Source: Luteitalea pratensis
GTDB taxonomy: Bacteria; Acidobacteriota; Vicinamibacteria; Vicinamibacterales; Vicinamibacteraceae
Assembly (NCBI RefSeq): GCF_001618865.1
Contig: NZ_CP015136.1
Span: 6,855,001 to 6,919,000 of the forward strand
Direction: 5' to 3'
DNA length: 64,000 bases
Positions 9,287 to 16,687 of the stretch are shown here, in pieces. Under the pieces are notes generated by a model. The model searched no databases and was not told where the DNA came from. It saw nothing but the letters and a program-made list of their open reading frames with translations. The stretch's first letter is position 1, and each line of letters opens with the position of its first letter. The position numbers and the translations under genes are program-made.

Positions 9287-10204
9287 ATGACCAACCAGCC
9301 CTGCTTCCGCAACGTCCTCCGCCCCATCAGCCAGGCAGCCTTGCTCACCTTGGTACTTCAGGGGAGTCCGGCCCGCGGGCAGGACCTGATGGCGTCCACC
9401 ACGAGTTTCCAGGCGATGACGGACGGCCCGCTCGTGCCGATGCCGGCAGCGGTGGTGCCGTCGTTCGGCCACCCGAACCGTCTGGAGCAGGAGGCGTTCC
9501 TCCGGTCGGCGCCGATCCGCCAGGTGCGCGGGGTGAAGGCCGGTGTCACCGGGACGCAGCGAGCCGCCCTGTCCTCAGGCCGTATCGCGCACGATGCCAG
9601 CATCCAGACCATCGACGAGTCCAAGGCGATGTTCCAGTCGGCGAGGCGGACTGAGCTCAACTTCCGGGATTTCTGGGGCTACAACGTGGCCGCGTACCGG
9701 CTCGGCGTCATGCTCGGGCTGGACAACATCCCGGTGTCGGTAGCCCGCCACTTCAACTCTCGTCCGGCGGCGTTCACGTGGTGGGTGGACGGGGTGCTGA
9801 TGGACGAGCGGGCACGGGCTGCGCAGCGGGTTGCGCCTCCGGCCCCCGCCTCCTGGACTGCCCAGGTCCACGTGATGCGGGTGTTCGACGAACTGATCGC
9901 GAATACCGACCGCAACCAGGGCAACATGCTGATCGACCGCGACTGGAAGCTGTGGCTCATCGACCATTCACGCGCCTTCCGCCTCGAGGAGTCATTGCGT
10001 TCGCCGATCCACGTGCGACGCTGCGACCGTGAACTGCTGATGCGGATGAAGGCGCTGACGCGCAAGGCGGTAGACGAGGAACTCGGCGACTACCTGACGA
10101 CGCCGGAACGCGAGGCCCTCATGGCGCGGCGCGATGCGCTGGTCAGGTTGGTCGAGTCGCTCGGGCCGAAAGCGCTCTACGACCTCAACACGTCCCGGCC
10201 ATAG
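9287..10204 (+). CDS. Exported kinase-like protein (PI3/4K-FAM20-HipA-type fold), paralogue 1
   Basis: 305 aa with a hydrophobic N-terminal leader (about 10-31). No named family is certain, but the layout is that of the atypical kinases: a beta-hairpin GVTGTQRAALSSG (86-98), a helix LNFRDFWGYNVAAYRLGVML (124-143), then a catalytic-loop-like FDELIANTDRNQGN (200-213) and a metal-binding-like WLIDHSRAF (223-231). The DRNxGN...ID arrangement parallels DRHNGN...ID of PI kinases. The position where a lysine would be expected reads ASIQTIDE, so ATP binding must differ or be absent. A paralogue lies at 11472-12317 and an exported phosphatase lies between them. Start ATG 9287. Confidence 0.7.
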   Translation: MTNQPCFRNVLRPISQAALLTLVLQGSPARGQDLMASTTSFQAMTDGPLVPMPAAVVPSFGHPNRLEQEAFLRSAPIRQVRGVKAGVTGTQRAALSSGRIAHDASIQTIDESKAMFQSARRTELNFRDFWGYNVAAYRLGVMLGLDNIPVSVARHFNSRPAAFTWWVDGVLMDERARAAQRVAPPAPASWTAQVHVMRVFDELIANTDRNQGNMLIDRDWKLWLIDHSRAFRLEESLRSPIHVRRCDRELLMRMKALTRKAVDEELGDYLTTPEREALMARRDALVRLVESLGPKALYDLNTSRP

Positions 10205-10361
10205 CCCAACCCCCGAAGGGGTCGAGCCTCCCGCCAGCGACCCCCGCCGCGGCGCATGGCCGGATGGCTGGTTGGTGAGACAGGGCCGGTCTTCACGGCA
10301 TAATCGACGCTTTCGCGGAGTTCTGCCGGCAGTCCGCGTTGGCGTCCTCGCCGGAACCACG

Positions 10362-11450
10362 ATGAAACGCGTCCTCGCCGCGCTGCTGCTTCTTGCTTGC
10401 ATTGGCCTGCCGGCTGCTCAGGCGCCATCCCGCATCGTCGTGGTGGGCGACGTGCACGGCGACCTGGCCGCGCTGGTCGACACCCTCGTGGATGCCGGCG
10501 TGATCGACAGCCGTCGGGCCTGGAAGGGCGGGAGCGCGATCTTCGTGCAACTCGGTGACGTGCCCGATCGCGGACCGAATTCGCGGCAGGTGATGGACCT
10601 CCTGACCGACCTCGAGAAGCAGGCACGCAGGGCCGGCGGTCGTGTGCACGCGCTCCTCGGCAACCACGAGGTCATGAACATGTTGGGTGACCTGCGGTAC
10701 GTGACGCCGGAGGAATACGCCTCCTACAGGTCATTGAACTCCGAGAAGTTGCGCGAGAGCGTATTCCTTGCCAACGCCGACCCGGCACGTCGCGAGGATC
10801 CCCTCTACAGATCTGCATGGATGGCCGACAAGCCGCTCGGTTGGGTTGAGCTGACCCAGGCGTTCAGCAAGCTGGGCAAGTACGGGCGATGGCTACGCCA
10901 GCACGACACGGTGGTGAAGATCGGCAGCACGCTGTTGCTTCACGGCGGGATCAGCCCCAAGTACGCCGCGCTGCAGGCCGACGAGATCAACACCCGCATC
11001 AAGACGGCCCTCGCCTCGGACACGCCGGGTGCCGAGACAATGCTGACCGACGAGGAGGGGCCGCTGTGGTATCGCGGCCTGGCGCTCGGCCCTGAGACCG
11101 ACCTCGCCGCGCATGTCGATGCGCTGCTGGCCCGTCACGGGGTCTCCCGCATCGTGATCGGTCACACGGTCGCGCCGGGAGTCGTGCTGCCTCGCTTCGG
11201 CGGCAAGGTGATCCTCAACGACGTCGGCCTCTCCGCGGTGTACGGCGGCCCGCGCTCGTCGCTCGAGATCAAGGGCGACGTAGTGTCCGTGCGGCACCGT
11301 GGCACCCTGCTGCAGGTGCCGACGAAGCCGGACCTGACGAACTACCTCCGGGCGGCGCGAGCCCTCGAACCCGCAGGATCGACGCTGGACGGCTGGATGG
11401 AGCAGCGCGCCATCTGGCCACCATCAGCCCCGGCGCCGCAGCAGCGCTGA
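10362..11450 (+). CDS. Exported metallophosphoesterase, Shelphs/PPP-like phosphatase
   Basis: The ATG at 10362 gives 362 aa with a clean signal peptide (MKRVLAALLLLACIGLPAAQA). Bimetal-site motifs of the PPP superfamily are intact: GDVHGD (29-34), GDVPDRG (65-71), GNHE (100-103), LLLHGG and IGHTVAPG. The inserted region between GNHE and the later histidines resembles Shewanella-like phosphatases, which dephosphorylate Ser/Thr or Tyr residues. It should act in the periplasm. It sits between two exported kinase-like genes (one upstream on the same strand, one convergent), suggesting opposing activities on shared substrates. Confidence 0.85.
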   Translation: MKRVLAALLLLACIGLPAAQAPSRIVVVGDVHGDLAALVDTLVDAGVIDSRRAWKGGSAIFVQLGDVPDRGPNSRQVMDLLTDLEKQARRAGGRVHALLGNHEVMNMLGDLRYVTPEEYASYRSLNSEKLRESVFLANADPARREDPLYRSAWMADKPLGWVELTQAFSKLGKYGRWLRQHDTVVKIGSTLLLHGGISPKYAALQADEINTRIKTALASDTPGAETMLTDEEGPLWYRGLALGPETDLAAHVDALLARHGVSRIVIGHTVAPGVVLPRFGGKVILNDVGLSAVYGGPRSSLEIKGDVVSVRHRGTLLQVPTKPDLTNYLRAARALEPAGSTLDGWMEQRAIWPPSAPAPQQR

Positions 11451-11471
11451 CGCGCCAGCCAAGCGCCTCGC

Positions 11472-12317
11472 CTACTTCTGGATGAAGTCGTAGAGAGCCG
11501 ACGGCCCCAGGCCCTCGACGTGCGCGACGAGCTTGTCGCGACGCGCAAGGATGGACTCGATCTCATGCTCGGTCAGATAGTCGTTCAGCTGCGCCTGCAG
11601 GTCCTCCAGCGTGAGTGTCCTCATCTTCGCCAGAAGCGTGCGTTCACAGCGTCGGATCGAACGGGGTTTGTGTAGATCGCTCGAGGTACGGAAGGCGCGG
11701 GAGTGATCGATCAGCCAGAGTTTCCACCGGTTGTCGATGAGCACGTTGCCCTGGTTGCGATCGGTGTTGGCGATCAGTTCGTCGAACACCCGCAAGATGT
11801 GCAGTTGCGCATTCCACGGCACCATGTTCGGCGGCGACACCTTCTGTTTCTGCCGCTCCATCTCGTCCATCATCACGTCGTCGACCCACCACGTGAACGC
11901 CGCCTTCTGCGCCCTGAATGGCCGCAGTACCGACGGCGGAATCATGTCCATTCCCAACATGACCCCAAGCCGGTAGGCGGCGACGTTGTAACCCCAGTAG
12001 TCACGAAAGTTGAACTCGAGGCGACGCGCTGTCTCGTAGCGAGGCTTCGACTCGTCGATGGTCTGGATGCTGGCGTCGTGCGTCAATGCGCCGTCGGAGA
12101 GCGTGGCCCGTTGGGTGCCCGTGACCCCCTTGCGCACTCCCTTGACCTGCTCGATGCCCCCACTGAGCAGGAACTGTTCCTGGTCCGCAAGGGAGAGCCG
12201 CGTGGAGGACGCCGGTGCGACGCTCGCGATCGTGGGCTGGCTGAATGAGGCGGTCTCCTGACCGGCCGCGGGCCAGGCTGCCGCGAGAATGCAGAGGGCG
12301 AGAGCTCGATGCACCAT
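11472..12317 (-). CDS. Exported kinase-like protein, paralogue 2
   Basis: 281 aa from the ATG at 12317, chosen because GGAG lies nine bases upstream and the first residues MVHRALALCILAAAWPAAG form a signal peptide. It is strongly similar throughout to the protein at 9287-10204: GVTGTQRATLSDG, ASIQTIDESK, FNFRDYWGYNVAAYRLGVML, FTWWVDDVMMDE, FDELIANTDRNQGN, WLIDHSRAF. The catalytic-loop and metal-binding motifs are identical in both. It converges on the exported phosphatase with 21 bp between the stop codons. Kinase activity is inferred from motif layout only. Confidence 0.72.
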   Translation of the reverse strand: MVHRALALCILAAAWPAAGQETASFSQPTIASVAPASSTRLSLADQEQFLLSGGIEQVKGVRKGVTGTQRATLSDGALTHDASIQTIDESKPRYETARRLEFNFRDYWGYNVAAYRLGVMLGMDMIPPSVLRPFRAQKAAFTWWVDDVMMDEMERQKQKVSPPNMVPWNAQLHILRVFDELIANTDRNQGNVLIDNRWKLWLIDHSRAFRTSSDLHKPRSIRRCERTLLAKMRTLTLEDLQAQLNDYLTEHEIESILARRDKLVAHVEGLGPSALYDFIQK

Positions 12318-12472
12318 GATCCGACTCCTGGAGGGGTGTGCGTTCCCCTGCCTCTCTAAACTGCGTAGAGCGCCGGTCCGAACGGATTGCGTTGGAGAGT
12401 CAGACGGAATTCGGATCCGCACCAGCGCGGCGGACGCAGGAGCAAGGCAACCGACGCGGTAGACTCGGGTTC

Positions 12473-14098
12473 ATGGGTGGGTGGCGACGTACCGCGGCAT
12501 CACTCGTCGGCCTCGTCGCACTCGCCTGCCTCGTCCTTGCCCGTCGTGACGCGGCCGGCGCGCAGGCTGTCGGCGTCCTTTACATCTCGGTGACGATCGG
12601 CGGCGGCGACGGCGCCGCCACGCCGGTGCCTCGCCACGCGCTCCTCGTCAGCGACAACCCGGCGAGCCGGGCGCCATGGCGCGTCGTCACCGCGCGCGAC
12701 GGGACCGCCCGCGTGACGTTACCCCCAGGCAACTACACGGTCGAGTCCGAGGAACCGCTCGTGTTCCAGGGCAAGGCCTACGAGTGGCGCCAGGTCGTCG
12801 ACGTGGCCGGAGGTGGCGACACGACGCTCGCACTCACGGCCGGCAATGCCGACGTCGGCACGGCCAGTACCGAATCGGCGTCCGCTGGAACACCACCGAA
12901 GGTCGACCAGTGGGAACTGCTGATCAAGTGGCAGGACAGCGTCGTCTCGCTCTGGACACCCAGCACGCACGCATCCGGCACCGTGATCGCCGCTACTGGT
13001 CTCATCGCGACCGCCCAACGTGTCGTCGGCACCGCCACGAACGTGGAGGTGCAGTTCACGCCGACCGTGAAGGTGTCGGCACGCGTCATCGCATCGGACA
13101 CCGCCCGGAATCTCGCCATCCTGTGGGTCGATCCGGCGTCACTCGGGCCGCGAACGCCAGTGCCGTTTGGTTGCGACGGCCACGCGCGGCCGCTGCTCGA
13201 ACGTGGCCAGCGTGTCTCCGCGATCGGCACGACGCGTTTTGGACAGCCCACCACGGCGCCAGGCACGATGCGACGTGTCGCCGGTGGCGTCCTCGCGGCG
13301 GAATTCGACTTCGACGTCGGCAGTGCGGGCGGGCCTGCGTTCGCGGCAGACGGCACCGTCGTCGGCCTGACGTCGGTCAAGGGCGACAGCGCCGACACGA
13401 GCATCGGCGAGGACAACACCGGCCTGGTCTCCGTGTCGGTGGTGTGCGACATGCTGGCAACGGCGCAGGCAAAGACGACAGGGGCCGTGCCGCCCACCGG
13501 CACGCTGCTGCCGGTGGAACCGACCCAGGTCGTGAGTGAGGCCGTCCTGCGGGAGAGCGCGAAGCGTCGCAGCGGCAGCCTGAACGGGTACAAGGCGACC
13601 ACGCCCAGTTTCGAGATCGCCTTCATCACGCCGGCAATCGCGTTTGCCGGGATGCAGGAGACGATGGACTTCGGCCAGTGGTCGTCGTACGTCGCCGATC
13701 ACCCTTCGGTGCTGCTCGTGCGCGCAACGCCGAAGCAGGTCGAGAGCCTGTGGGTCAAGGTGGCGCGCGGCGCGGCGATGACGCAGGGCATGGCGCTCCC
13801 CCCCATCAAGCATTTCACCCCGGGTGTCGCACGCATGCGCGTACTCTGCGGGACCAGTGAAGTGACGCCGGTCCATCCGTTCATCGTCGAACGGCGGATC
13901 TCCGAGACCGACGCCATCCATGAAGGACTCCACGTGCTGGGTGCCGATGCGATCGGCCCCCACTGCGGCGGTGTCACCCTCGAGGTGTACTCGGAGAAGG
14001 AACCAGACAAGCGCGAAACGACCACGATCGATCCGAAGGTGCTGCAGCAGATCTGGGATGACCTGGCACCATTCCGGCCGCCGAGCGCACGGCCCTGA
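12473..14098 (+). CDS. Trypsin-fold pseudoprotease with N-terminal beta-sandwich domain, exported
   Basis: 541 aa from the ATG at 12473, with a signal peptide ending about residue 31 (AGAQA). Residues about 35-125 look like a carboxypeptidase-regulatory-type beta domain (DGTARVTLPPGNYTVE). Residues about 155-330 follow the HtrA/S1C pattern, but every catalytic position is substituted: GLIATAQRVVG has Arg183 for His, ARNLAILWVD has Asn213 for Asp, and DVGSAGGPAF has Ala285 for Ser. The C-terminal 200 residues match nothing I recognise. It is therefore probably a binding or scaffold protein. A TAGACT box seven bases before the ATG suggests a leaderless transcript. Confidence 0.78.
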   Translation: MGGWRRTAASLVGLVALACLVLARRDAAGAQAVGVLYISVTIGGGDGAATPVPRHALLVSDNPASRAPWRVVTARDGTARVTLPPGNYTVESEEPLVFQGKAYEWRQVVDVAGGGDTTLALTAGNADVGTASTESASAGTPPKVDQWELLIKWQDSVVSLWTPSTHASGTVIAATGLIATAQRVVGTATNVEVQFTPTVKVSARVIASDTARNLAILWVDPASLGPRTPVPFGCDGHARPLLERGQRVSAIGTTRFGQPTTAPGTMRRVAGGVLAAEFDFDVGSAGGPAFAADGTVVGLTSVKGDSADTSIGEDNTGLVSVSVVCDMLATAQAKTTGAVPPTGTLLPVEPTQVVSEAVLRESAKRRSGSLNGYKATTPSFEIAFITPAIAFAGMQETMDFGQWSSYVADHPSVLLVRATPKQVESLWVKVARGAAMTQGMALPPIKHFTPGVARMRVLCGTSEVTPVHPFIVERRISETDAIHEGLHVLGADAIGPHCGGVTLEVYSEKEPDKRETTTIDPKVLQQIWDDLAPFRPPSARP

Positions 14099-15834: not shown

Positions 15835-15889
15835 TCAGTGATCGTCCCTACGGCGTTCGTCAGAGTTCGCGGTGATAGCCTGTCCCCGG

Positions 15890-16687
15890 ATGCCGACCAC
15901 CGCCATGGATCCGCCGCCGCTGACGCCGCCCTTGAAGTGGGCCGGTGGCAAGCGCTGGCAGTTGCCGGTCCTCCGACCGCTGTGGGCGGGCTACCAGCAT
16001 CGACGGCTGGTCGAGCCGTTTTGCGGCGGACTGGCCGTGCCGCTCGGACTGCGCCCGGCGACGGCGCTTCTCAACGATCTCAACCCGCACCTCGTGAACT
16101 TCTACCGCTGGGTGCAGCGCGGCCTGTCGGTCGACGTCGCGCTCGAGAACGTCCGGGACCTCTACTACGCGCATCGCACGCGCTTCAACGCGTTGCTCGA
16201 GGTCGGCGGCGGCGACACGGCCGAGGCGTCGCTGTTCTACTTTCTCAACCGGACCGGATACAACGGGCTCTGCCGCTTCAACCGGCGCAACCAGTTCAAC
16301 GTGCCGTTCGGGCGCTATCGCTCGATCCCGTACGTCTCGGATCTGCATGGCTACCGCGACGCGTTGCGATCGTGGTCGTTCACCTGCGTGGAGTTCGATG
16401 CGATGCCGCTCGCGCCCGACGACTTCGTCTACGCGGACCCGCCGTACGACGTCGAGTTCCGCCAATACGCGGCGCGCGGCTTCAGCTGGGACGATCAGGT
16501 ACGAACGGCGCAGTTCCTTGCCGCACACCCCGGGCCGGTCGTACTCGCCAACCAGGCGACGCCCCGGATCCTTGCCCTCTACGAGTCGCTCGGCTACACA
16601 CTGCGCCTGCTCGACGCGCCGCGGCGCATCAGCTGCGACGGCAACCGAACGCCCGCCCGTGAAGTACTCGCGCTGCGAAACCTGTAG
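15890..16687 (+). CDS. D12-class DNA adenine (N6) methyltransferase, Dam-like, orphan
   Basis: 265 aa from the ATG at 15890 (an ATG at 15905 and one at 15872 are also in frame). Methyltransferase motifs are complete: LKWAGGKRW near the N-terminus for AdoMet binding, VEPFCGGLAVPLGL (motif I), LLNDLNPHLVNFYR, FYFLNRTGYNGLCRFNR and the catalytic DPPY (motif IV) in FVYADPPYDVEF. No restriction enzyme lies nearby, so it is an orphan methylase affecting gene regulation or repair, or part of a broken system. The recognition site cannot be read from the sequence. Both flanks carry heptamer arrays and a matching palindromic element. Confidence 0.88.
   Translation: MPTTAMDPPPLTPPLKWAGGKRWQLPVLRPLWAGYQHRRLVEPFCGGLAVPLGLRPATALLNDLNPHLVNFYRWVQRGLSVDVALENVRDLYYAHRTRFNALLEVGGGDTAEASLFYFLNRTGYNGLCRFNRRNQFNVPFGRYRSIPYVSDLHGYRDALRSWSFTCVEFDAMPLAPDDFVYADPPYDVEFRQYAARGFSWDDQVRTAQFLAAHPGPVVLANQATPRILALYESLGYTLRLLDAPRRISCDGNRTPAREVLALRNL

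Follow-up and report, generated by a model that had tools for sequence, protein, structure and literature searches.

Exported kinase-like proteins of the FAM20 fold are predicted in Acidobacteriota, recurrently paired with or fused to a Shelph-type phosphatase: a Luteitalea pratensis locus with an altered nucleotide site

The nearest relatives of solved structure for the kinase-like genes considered here are the FAM20 kinases, which have been called eukaryotic- or Metazoa-specific in work whose graph comprised Legionella, human and amoebal kinases only (PMC9758233). As described there, four novel Legionella families cluster, together with LepB and AnkK, with the FAM20/CotH group (PMC9758233), so that proteins close to FAM20 have some precedent in bacteria. 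Those Legionella families resemble the proteins reported here in being bacterial and kinase-like and in grouping with FAM20/CotH by sequence similarity; some of them, however, are effectors, and no PPP phosphatase pairing appears in their description, on which this comparison is based. Here we analyze a window of 64,000 nucleotides from Luteitalea pratensis (RefSeq assembly GCF_001618865.1, contig NZ_CP015136.1, positions 6,855,001 to 6,919,000; coordinates below are those of the window), in which two FAM20-fold kinase-like genes, A and C, flank P, a gene for a Shelph-type PPP phosphatase. We consider it somewhat the likelier reading that this locus is an instance of an Acidobacteriota envelope kinase-phosphatase module, and that A and C are re-tailored and active rather than dead.

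9287..10204, plus strand: gene A, putatively exported FAM20-fold kinase-like protein of the Gln/Asn clade, 305 amino acids (open reading frame, ORF; identity to C; active-site class and tree position)
10362..11450, plus strand: gene P, putatively exported Shelph-type PPP phosphatase, 362 amino acids (PF00149; Shewanella phosphatase structures; alignment)
11475..12317, minus strand: gene C, putatively exported FAM20-fold kinase-like protein of the Gln/Asn clade, 281 amino acids from its ATG (AlphaFold2 model; Hydra Fam20 match)

Over 288 aligned columns A and C agree in 163 (57% identity, BLASTP E 8e-114), and alignment bears out the claim of an earlier note on this DNA that they share WLIDHSRAF, in a layout like that of catalytic and metal loops; the segments FDELIANTDRNQGN and HDASIQTIDESK are also common to both. 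C lies on the minus strand and is convergent with P, with a 24-bp gap between them, so A, P and C are not one operon. The same genome holds a third, more distant member of the kinase family (G000, 2153474-2154220; 34% identity), in which both Lys and Glu of the nucleotide site are present.

The earlier note, made from the DNA letters alone, had proposed a kinase-like fold for A and C with likeness to FAM20, HipA and phosphatidylinositol 4-kinase. An AlphaFold2 model of C built from an alignment of 69 family members (predicted local distance difference test 91.8; predicted template modelling score, pTM, 0.84) is kinase-like rather than of an unrelated fold, and the 69-member profile agrees. The best structural match of the model is Hydra Fam20 (Z 20.1, root-mean-square deviation 3.1, 228 aligned), followed by FAM20C (Z 19.2), type II phosphatidylinositol 4-kinase (PI4KII) beta (18.5), FAM20A (18.1), CtkA (15.9) and HipA (12.3). 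When the profile is searched against PDB, FAM20A comes first (E 8e-11), then Hydra Fam20 (2e-7), FAM20C (6e-7) and PI4K2B (0.0017); hemagglutinin rows in this search (E about 0.1 to 0.4) were taken as chance. With C alone as query, phmmer recovered no FAM20 chain from PDB up to E 10, and the three chains of one polyketide synthase type that it returned were likewise taken as chance. Together, profile and model support a family nearest to FAM20, with FAM20C and PI4KII tied in fold. Of the likenesses first proposed, FAM20 is thus the nearest and PI4KII close in fold, whereas HipA is weaker (Z 12.3 vs 20.1).

The resemblance to FAM20A/B/C spans fold (Z 18-20), PDB profile matches, signal-bearing N-termini, an acid at the FAM20C Glu306 position, the DR-loop, the metal Asp, a PPxV after alphaC and the occurrence of pseudokinase relatives. 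In contrast, the present family is bacterial and tied to a PPP phosphatase, and A and C are not strict FAM20 members, because neither matches Pfam Fam20C (PF06702) at E 10, each has one Cys per mature chain, and both lack the beta3 Lys, at the position of FAM20C K271. PF06702 matches 10 of the 69 family members at E 0.01 (best 4.5e-4). FAM20 proteins have conserved disulphides. Loop disulphides are mentioned for them in PMC5865150 and PMC5413348. The cysteines of A (Cys6 and Cys246) and of C (Cys9 and Cys224) leave one per chain after the signal, and therefore no internal disulphide.

Matches of A and C to the Pfam families PI3_PI4_kinase, HipA_2 and ABC1 all lie under cut-off: PF00454 (PI3/PI4 kinase) gives 24.3 bits for A and 16.2 for C against a gathering score of 27.1, and HipA_2 gives 17.1 and 19.6 bits against 27. 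Type II phosphatidylinositol 4-kinases share the fold and the weak PI3_PI4_kinase matches; the family here differs from them in its signals and matches them less well in sequence than it does FAM20. HipA kinases are distant in fold, and differ from the present family in that the latter is signal-bearing and below the HipA_2 cut-off. TIGR03843 (the SCO1664 family, which is cytosolic) matches 67/69 family members at E 0.01 or better; A and C reach E 6e-12 with 45.5 and 45.4 bits, in contrast to a curated cut-off of 172.4.

P matches Metallophos (PF00149) at E 2.2e-14. Among solved structures it comes closest in sequence to the phosphatases of Shewanella, 2z72 (E 3.4e-31), 1v73 and 2zbm (range E 3e-31 to 1e-30). 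The PPP metal motifs are all intact (GDVHG, GDVPDRG, GNHE, HGG and GHT), located by alignment at:

10446..10460, plus strand: metal motif GDVHG
10554..10574, plus strand: metal motif GDVPDRG
10659..10670, plus strand: metal motif GNHE
10941..10949, plus strand: metal motif HGG
11163..11165, plus strand: metal His268 (GHT)

Alignment and sequence matches to solved structures thus support the assignment of P, first made in the earlier note, as a Shelph-type PPP phosphatase. The likeness to the cold-active Shewanella enzyme (1v73) holds for P in sequence and for the fused phosphatase domain described below in fold; unlike known Shelph phosphatases, these are coupled or fused to FAM20-fold domains.

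All three proteins had been proposed to carry signal peptides, and their N-termini (A, MTNQPCFRNVLRPISQAALLTLVLQGSPARGQ; P, MKRVLAALLLLACIGLPAAQ; C, MVHRALALCILAAAWPAAGQ) all pass a home-made Sec-signal rule, C only in a slightly wider run. The ends of two putative signals were judged by eye:

9287..9379, plus strand: putative Sec signal peptide of A (home-made rule)
10362..10421, plus strand: putative Sec signal peptide of P (home-made rule)

In the main run, signal-like N-termini were found in 78 of 99 separate family kinases (C is one of the 21 missed) and in 63 of the 74 ORFs for the phosphatase. As a control, the rule marked 247 of 750 other ORFs of at least 250 amino acids from the same stretches, and 94 of 750 when applied to an internal stretch; fewer alternative start codons were allowed for these control ORFs than for the test ORFs. 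Under the same rule, 17 of the 21 kinase-phosphatase fusions have a signal-like N-terminus. The rule is simple, and export of A, P and C is accordingly likely rather than certain.

To place the locus in its phylum, 396 Acidobacteriota genomes were surveyed with a kinase profile (E 1e-8) and a PPP profile (E 1e-15), matches to the latter counting as strong at 1e-60, a line set post hoc at the gap between 8.5e-57 and 9.9e-67. The kinase family occurs in 79 genomes and the PPP profile in 86, 67 of them strong; 63 genomes hold both a strong PPP and a kinase, 4 the PPP only, 16 the kinase only and 313 neither (Fisher 1e-52, a test that ignores kinship between genomes), while 17 of 19 weaker PPP matches lie in genomes without the kinase. 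There are 74 strong P places, 68 read in fetched stretches and 6 judged from the survey results, with 4 loci fetched for their kinase left out of the count. At 51/74 places P is fused to a family kinase or within 6 kb of one: the two form a single ORF at 21 places, are separated by up to 600 bp at 24 and by up to 6 kb at the other 6, where about 0.7% would be expected by chance for about 3 kinases in 5 Mb (arithmetic). The arrangement of the window, a Gln-clade kinase convergent with the PPP gene, recurs in L005, L007, L010 and G077, and gene orientation differs between loci. When genome contigs were scanned for patterns characteristic of the Gln clade, the 9 loci obtained were all from Acidobacteriota, and a scan of plasmids gave three metallophosphoesterase matches and zero kinase matches.

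The fusions, from 21 genomes with 10 family codes, place the phosphatase first and the kinase-like domain second. On the tree described below the fused state needs at least 7 changes. The kinase part keeps both catalytic Asp and Asn in 10 fusions and Asp without Asn in 1, and is uncovered in 2 (G327, G164); the phosphatase part retains NHE in 17 of the 18 fusions that were aligned, and one fusion (G304) is broken by a stop. A model of the fusion at L117 (pLDDT 87.1, pTM 0.61) matches Shewanella phosphatase 1v73 at PPP Z 33.5, and its Foldseek matches include PI4KII and Fam20, with values of about 1e-7 to 1e-6; among the best 50 matches in structure comparison, all were to the phosphatase half and none to the kinase half. 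In another fusion (L121:7064-8971, G193) the phosphatase motifs are degenerate (GGVHG, GHG, GQEE) and the catalytic residues of the kinase-like half are kept, which by its motifs makes it a pseudophosphatase-kinase. Tandem arrays of two or three Lys-bearing members also occur (L059:3924-10743, L060:8513-15328, L068:6747-10288), near a phosphatase and its adjacent or fused pseudokinase relative.

The absence of the canonical Lys from A and C, remarked in the earlier note, is real and extends to a whole clade. Active-site residues were mapped from profile alignments and PMC5865150, with numbers counted by hand. In this mapping C Gln85 corresponds to Hydra Lys133, the beta3-Lys position; Asp106 to Hydra Asp152, C. 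elegans Glu213 and FAM20C Glu306; Asn111 to C. elegans Glu218, the canonical alphaC-Glu position; Asp186, the catalytic base, to Hydra Asp299; and Arg207 to Hydra Lys321. The positions, taken from alignment, are:

9605..9607, plus strand: A Gln107 codon, beta3-Lys position (= C Gln85)
9908..9925, plus strand: A catalytic loop D208-R-N-Q-G-N213
9962..9964, plus strand: A Asp226, DFG-type metal Asp in IDHSRAF
12063..12065, minus strand: C Gln85 codon, beta3-Lys position
11985..11987, minus strand: C Asn111 codon, canonical alphaC-Glu position
11745..11762, minus strand: C catalytic loop D186-R-N-Q-G-N191
11706..11708, minus strand: C Asp204, DFG-type metal Asp (Asp in 118/118 family ORFs that have a residue at this position)

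The fetched stretches contain 120 unique family ORFs, of which 70 have Lys at the beta3 position, and the residue pairs at 85 and 111 are Lys/Glu in 62, Gln/Asn in 32, Arg/Glu in 11, Lys/Asp in 7, Gln/Ser and His/Gln in 2 each, and Gln/Asp, Arg/Asp, Lys/Gly and unaligned in one each; Lys with Asn or Gln with Glu occurs in zero of the 120. The position of FAM20C Glu306 carries an acid, D or E, in 114 of the 119 ORFs that have a residue at it. On a tree of 117 rows, made by a quick method with columns 85 and 111 left out and with branch support from the Shimodaira-Hasegawa-like approximate likelihood ratio test (SH-aLRT) without bootstrap, the Gln rows form one group of 35 that includes A and C (SH-aLRT 98). 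The change from Lys to Gln therefore most simply happened once and was then kept, the tree showing one independent change of Gln. The clade has Gln at the beta3-Lys position in 35/35 rows and Asn at the alphaC-Glu position in 32/35, with private residues around them (H80 in 34/35, D81 in 32/35, E101 in 35/35, N103 in 30/35, W143 in 35/35), and it keeps D186, N188, N191, D204 and R207 in 35/35. To judge from these alignments, the coupled shift from Lys/Glu to Gln/Asn is a trait of the clade, and the pattern has the look of a nucleotide pocket that was rebuilt, not of one in decay. The idea of A and C as genes in decay was rejected, as the substitutions form one supported clade and the catalytic residues are kept. 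In a further branch (17 rows, Lys in 16) the catalytic Asp is gone, and its members read as true pseudokinases.

Several points weigh against an active envelope module, among them the post hoc line and the kinship between genomes mentioned above. With all 86 PPP matches the association is looser, at 65 genomes with a kinase, 21 with PPP only, 14 with kinase only and 296 with neither (Fisher 9e-42). No family kinase was found near P at 23 of the 74 places; in 2 of these the genes are far apart on one contig, and in 21 there is none in the stretch, several of the contigs being under 7 kb. The kinase part lacks the catalytic Asp in 8 of the 21 fusions, and a strong P relative is missing from 16 of the 79 genomes with the kinase family. 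The fold scores of FAM20C, FAM20A and PI4KII lie within 1 Z and amount to a tie. Beyond the cytoplasm, ATP is probably scarce. In FAM20C, K271A abolishes ATP binding, as does a change of the DFG Asp (PMC5413348). Finally, G317, of the same genus, keeps an A-like and a C-like gene in close proximity; the C-like gene is followed, at L044:12614-14212, by what is by eye the counterpart of the trypsin-like neighbour in the window; the PPP profile finds no P in that genome, and the gap between its kinase-like genes holds no trace of P. A second genome of the genus, G362, also has no P by the PPP profile. Given G317 and the other P-less kinase genomes, P is a frequent and not an obligatory partner: the neighbourhood proposed in the earlier note is conserved as a pairing, fusions included, but the trio is not invariant. 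Between the kinase-like genes of G317, where the window has P, lie a sensor kinase and a response regulator, identified by eye (L044:8069-10247).

A sister species without P at the matching locus, and orientations that vary between loci, are what would be expected if kinase and phosphatase were neighbours by shared inheritance alone and served unrelated processes. We consider this very improbable, as at 51/74 places P has a family kinase fused to it or no more than 6 kb away, with several different gene orders, and as the 21 fusions span 10 families and need several separate changes on the tree. The recurrent pairing and fusion suggest instead that the genes may serve reversible phosphorylation outside the cytoplasm.

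The loss of both nucleotide-site residues raises the question of whether A and C are pseudokinases that regulate or scaffold a Lys-bearing paralogue or the phosphatase, as FAM20A activates FAM20C. FAM20A is itself a pseudokinase, with an acid-to-Gln change at a neighbouring position and ATP bound upside down (PMC5865150, PMC5413348); the branch without catalytic Asp adjoins or is fused to the phosphatase; and the genome of the window does hold a Lys/Glu paralogue. However, the catalytic Asp and Asn, the metal Asp and the acid matching FAM20C Glu306 are kept in 35/35 Gln-clade rows, and a Gln-clade protein is the sole family member detected in 11 genomes (4 with P, 7 without; up to 6 candidates scored per genome), which speaks against these proteins serving in general to activate a Lys-bearing paralogue. 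We therefore hold the pseudokinase explanation possible but doubtful. A bacterial precedent for an altered beta3 Lys is the kinase-methyltransferase Lani_1194/NoeA, in whose description no ion-pair Glu was found and a phosphatase-fold neighbour is noted (PMC9758233); it differs in having Lys changed to Arg, a methyltransferase fusion, an alkaline-phosphatase-fold neighbour and a cytoplasmic role in Nod-factor decoration (PMC9758233).

Returning to an envelope module with active A and C, we infer the following scheme. A FAM20-fold kinase-like member would add phosphate, or another phospho group, to an envelope or secreted substrate, and the exported Shelph-type phosphatase would remove it, the two activities forming one polypeptide in several lineages. 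In A and C the N-lobe nucleotide contacts would have been rebuilt (Lys to Gln, alphaC-Glu to Asn, and a near-invariant His-Asp, Glu and Trp), with the catalytic loop and metal Asp kept and the geometry of the nucleotide, or the donor, altered. More specifically, and only tentatively, the Gln/Asn clade may comprise rebuilt exported phosphotransferases that work without the ATP-binding Lys of FAM20C, through a new His-Asp / Gln / Glu-x-Asn / Asn / Trp pocket, possibly with an unusual donor or an inverted nucleotide, in a reversible extracytoplasmic system with a dedicated Shelph phosphatase.

The substrate could be a carbohydrate, the exported kinases acting like FAM20B, a xylosylkinase, on an envelope polysaccharide, with P as a sugar phosphatase; this would be compatible with the scheme above. 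The top fold match, Hydra Fam20, is a xylosylkinase, and the conserved Thr66 aligns in our own mapping with its sugar-binding Thr114. Against this, by our own count the position at which FAM20B requires Lys corresponds to R207, an Arg conserved in 35/35 rows of the Gln clade and in 61 of the 63 Lys/Arg/His rows whose catalytic loop is intact; human FAM20B lost its activity when this Lys was changed to Arg (PMC5865150). The nearest solved relative of P, moreover, is named a protein-tyrosine phosphatase. A carbohydrate substrate thus seems rather unlikely, and Arg207, which resembles FAM20C (protein) rather than FAM20B (sugar), is a weak hint of protein substrates.

Among ORFs within 5 kb of the loci, no convincing family was found as a third conserved partner that might be the substrate; the two largest neighbour clusters (33 and 27 genomes) start with likely long spurious frames in G+C-rich DNA. 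Short proteins that appear STAS-like by eye lie within 5 kb of loci in 7 genomes (e.g. L125:7126-7470). In the window, a Trypsin_2/HtrA-like protein (12338-14098, plus strand) adjoins gene C, and the ORF at 15872-16687 (plus strand) resembles by eye a Dam-type DNA adenine methylase (DPPY motif).

The top-ranked matches in the open literature, which included no bioRxiv and few subscription papers, contained no exported Acidobacteriota FAM20-like family and no Shelph-kinase fusion. KINtaro comprises 72 kinase-like families (PMC10870513), which may include the present one. Both the folds and the logic described here are known; we regard as new the place, the combination and the form of the active site. 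With a FAM20-fold family that is bacterial, probably exported and encoded in one gene with its counter-enzyme in 21 genomes, FAM20-like phosphorylation outside the cytoplasm would reach into a soil phylum, and substrates could be sought in a simple system. Moreover, the clade-wide loss of Lys and Glu, with the rest of the site kept, is a sharp test of what the kinase fold needs at its nucleotide site.

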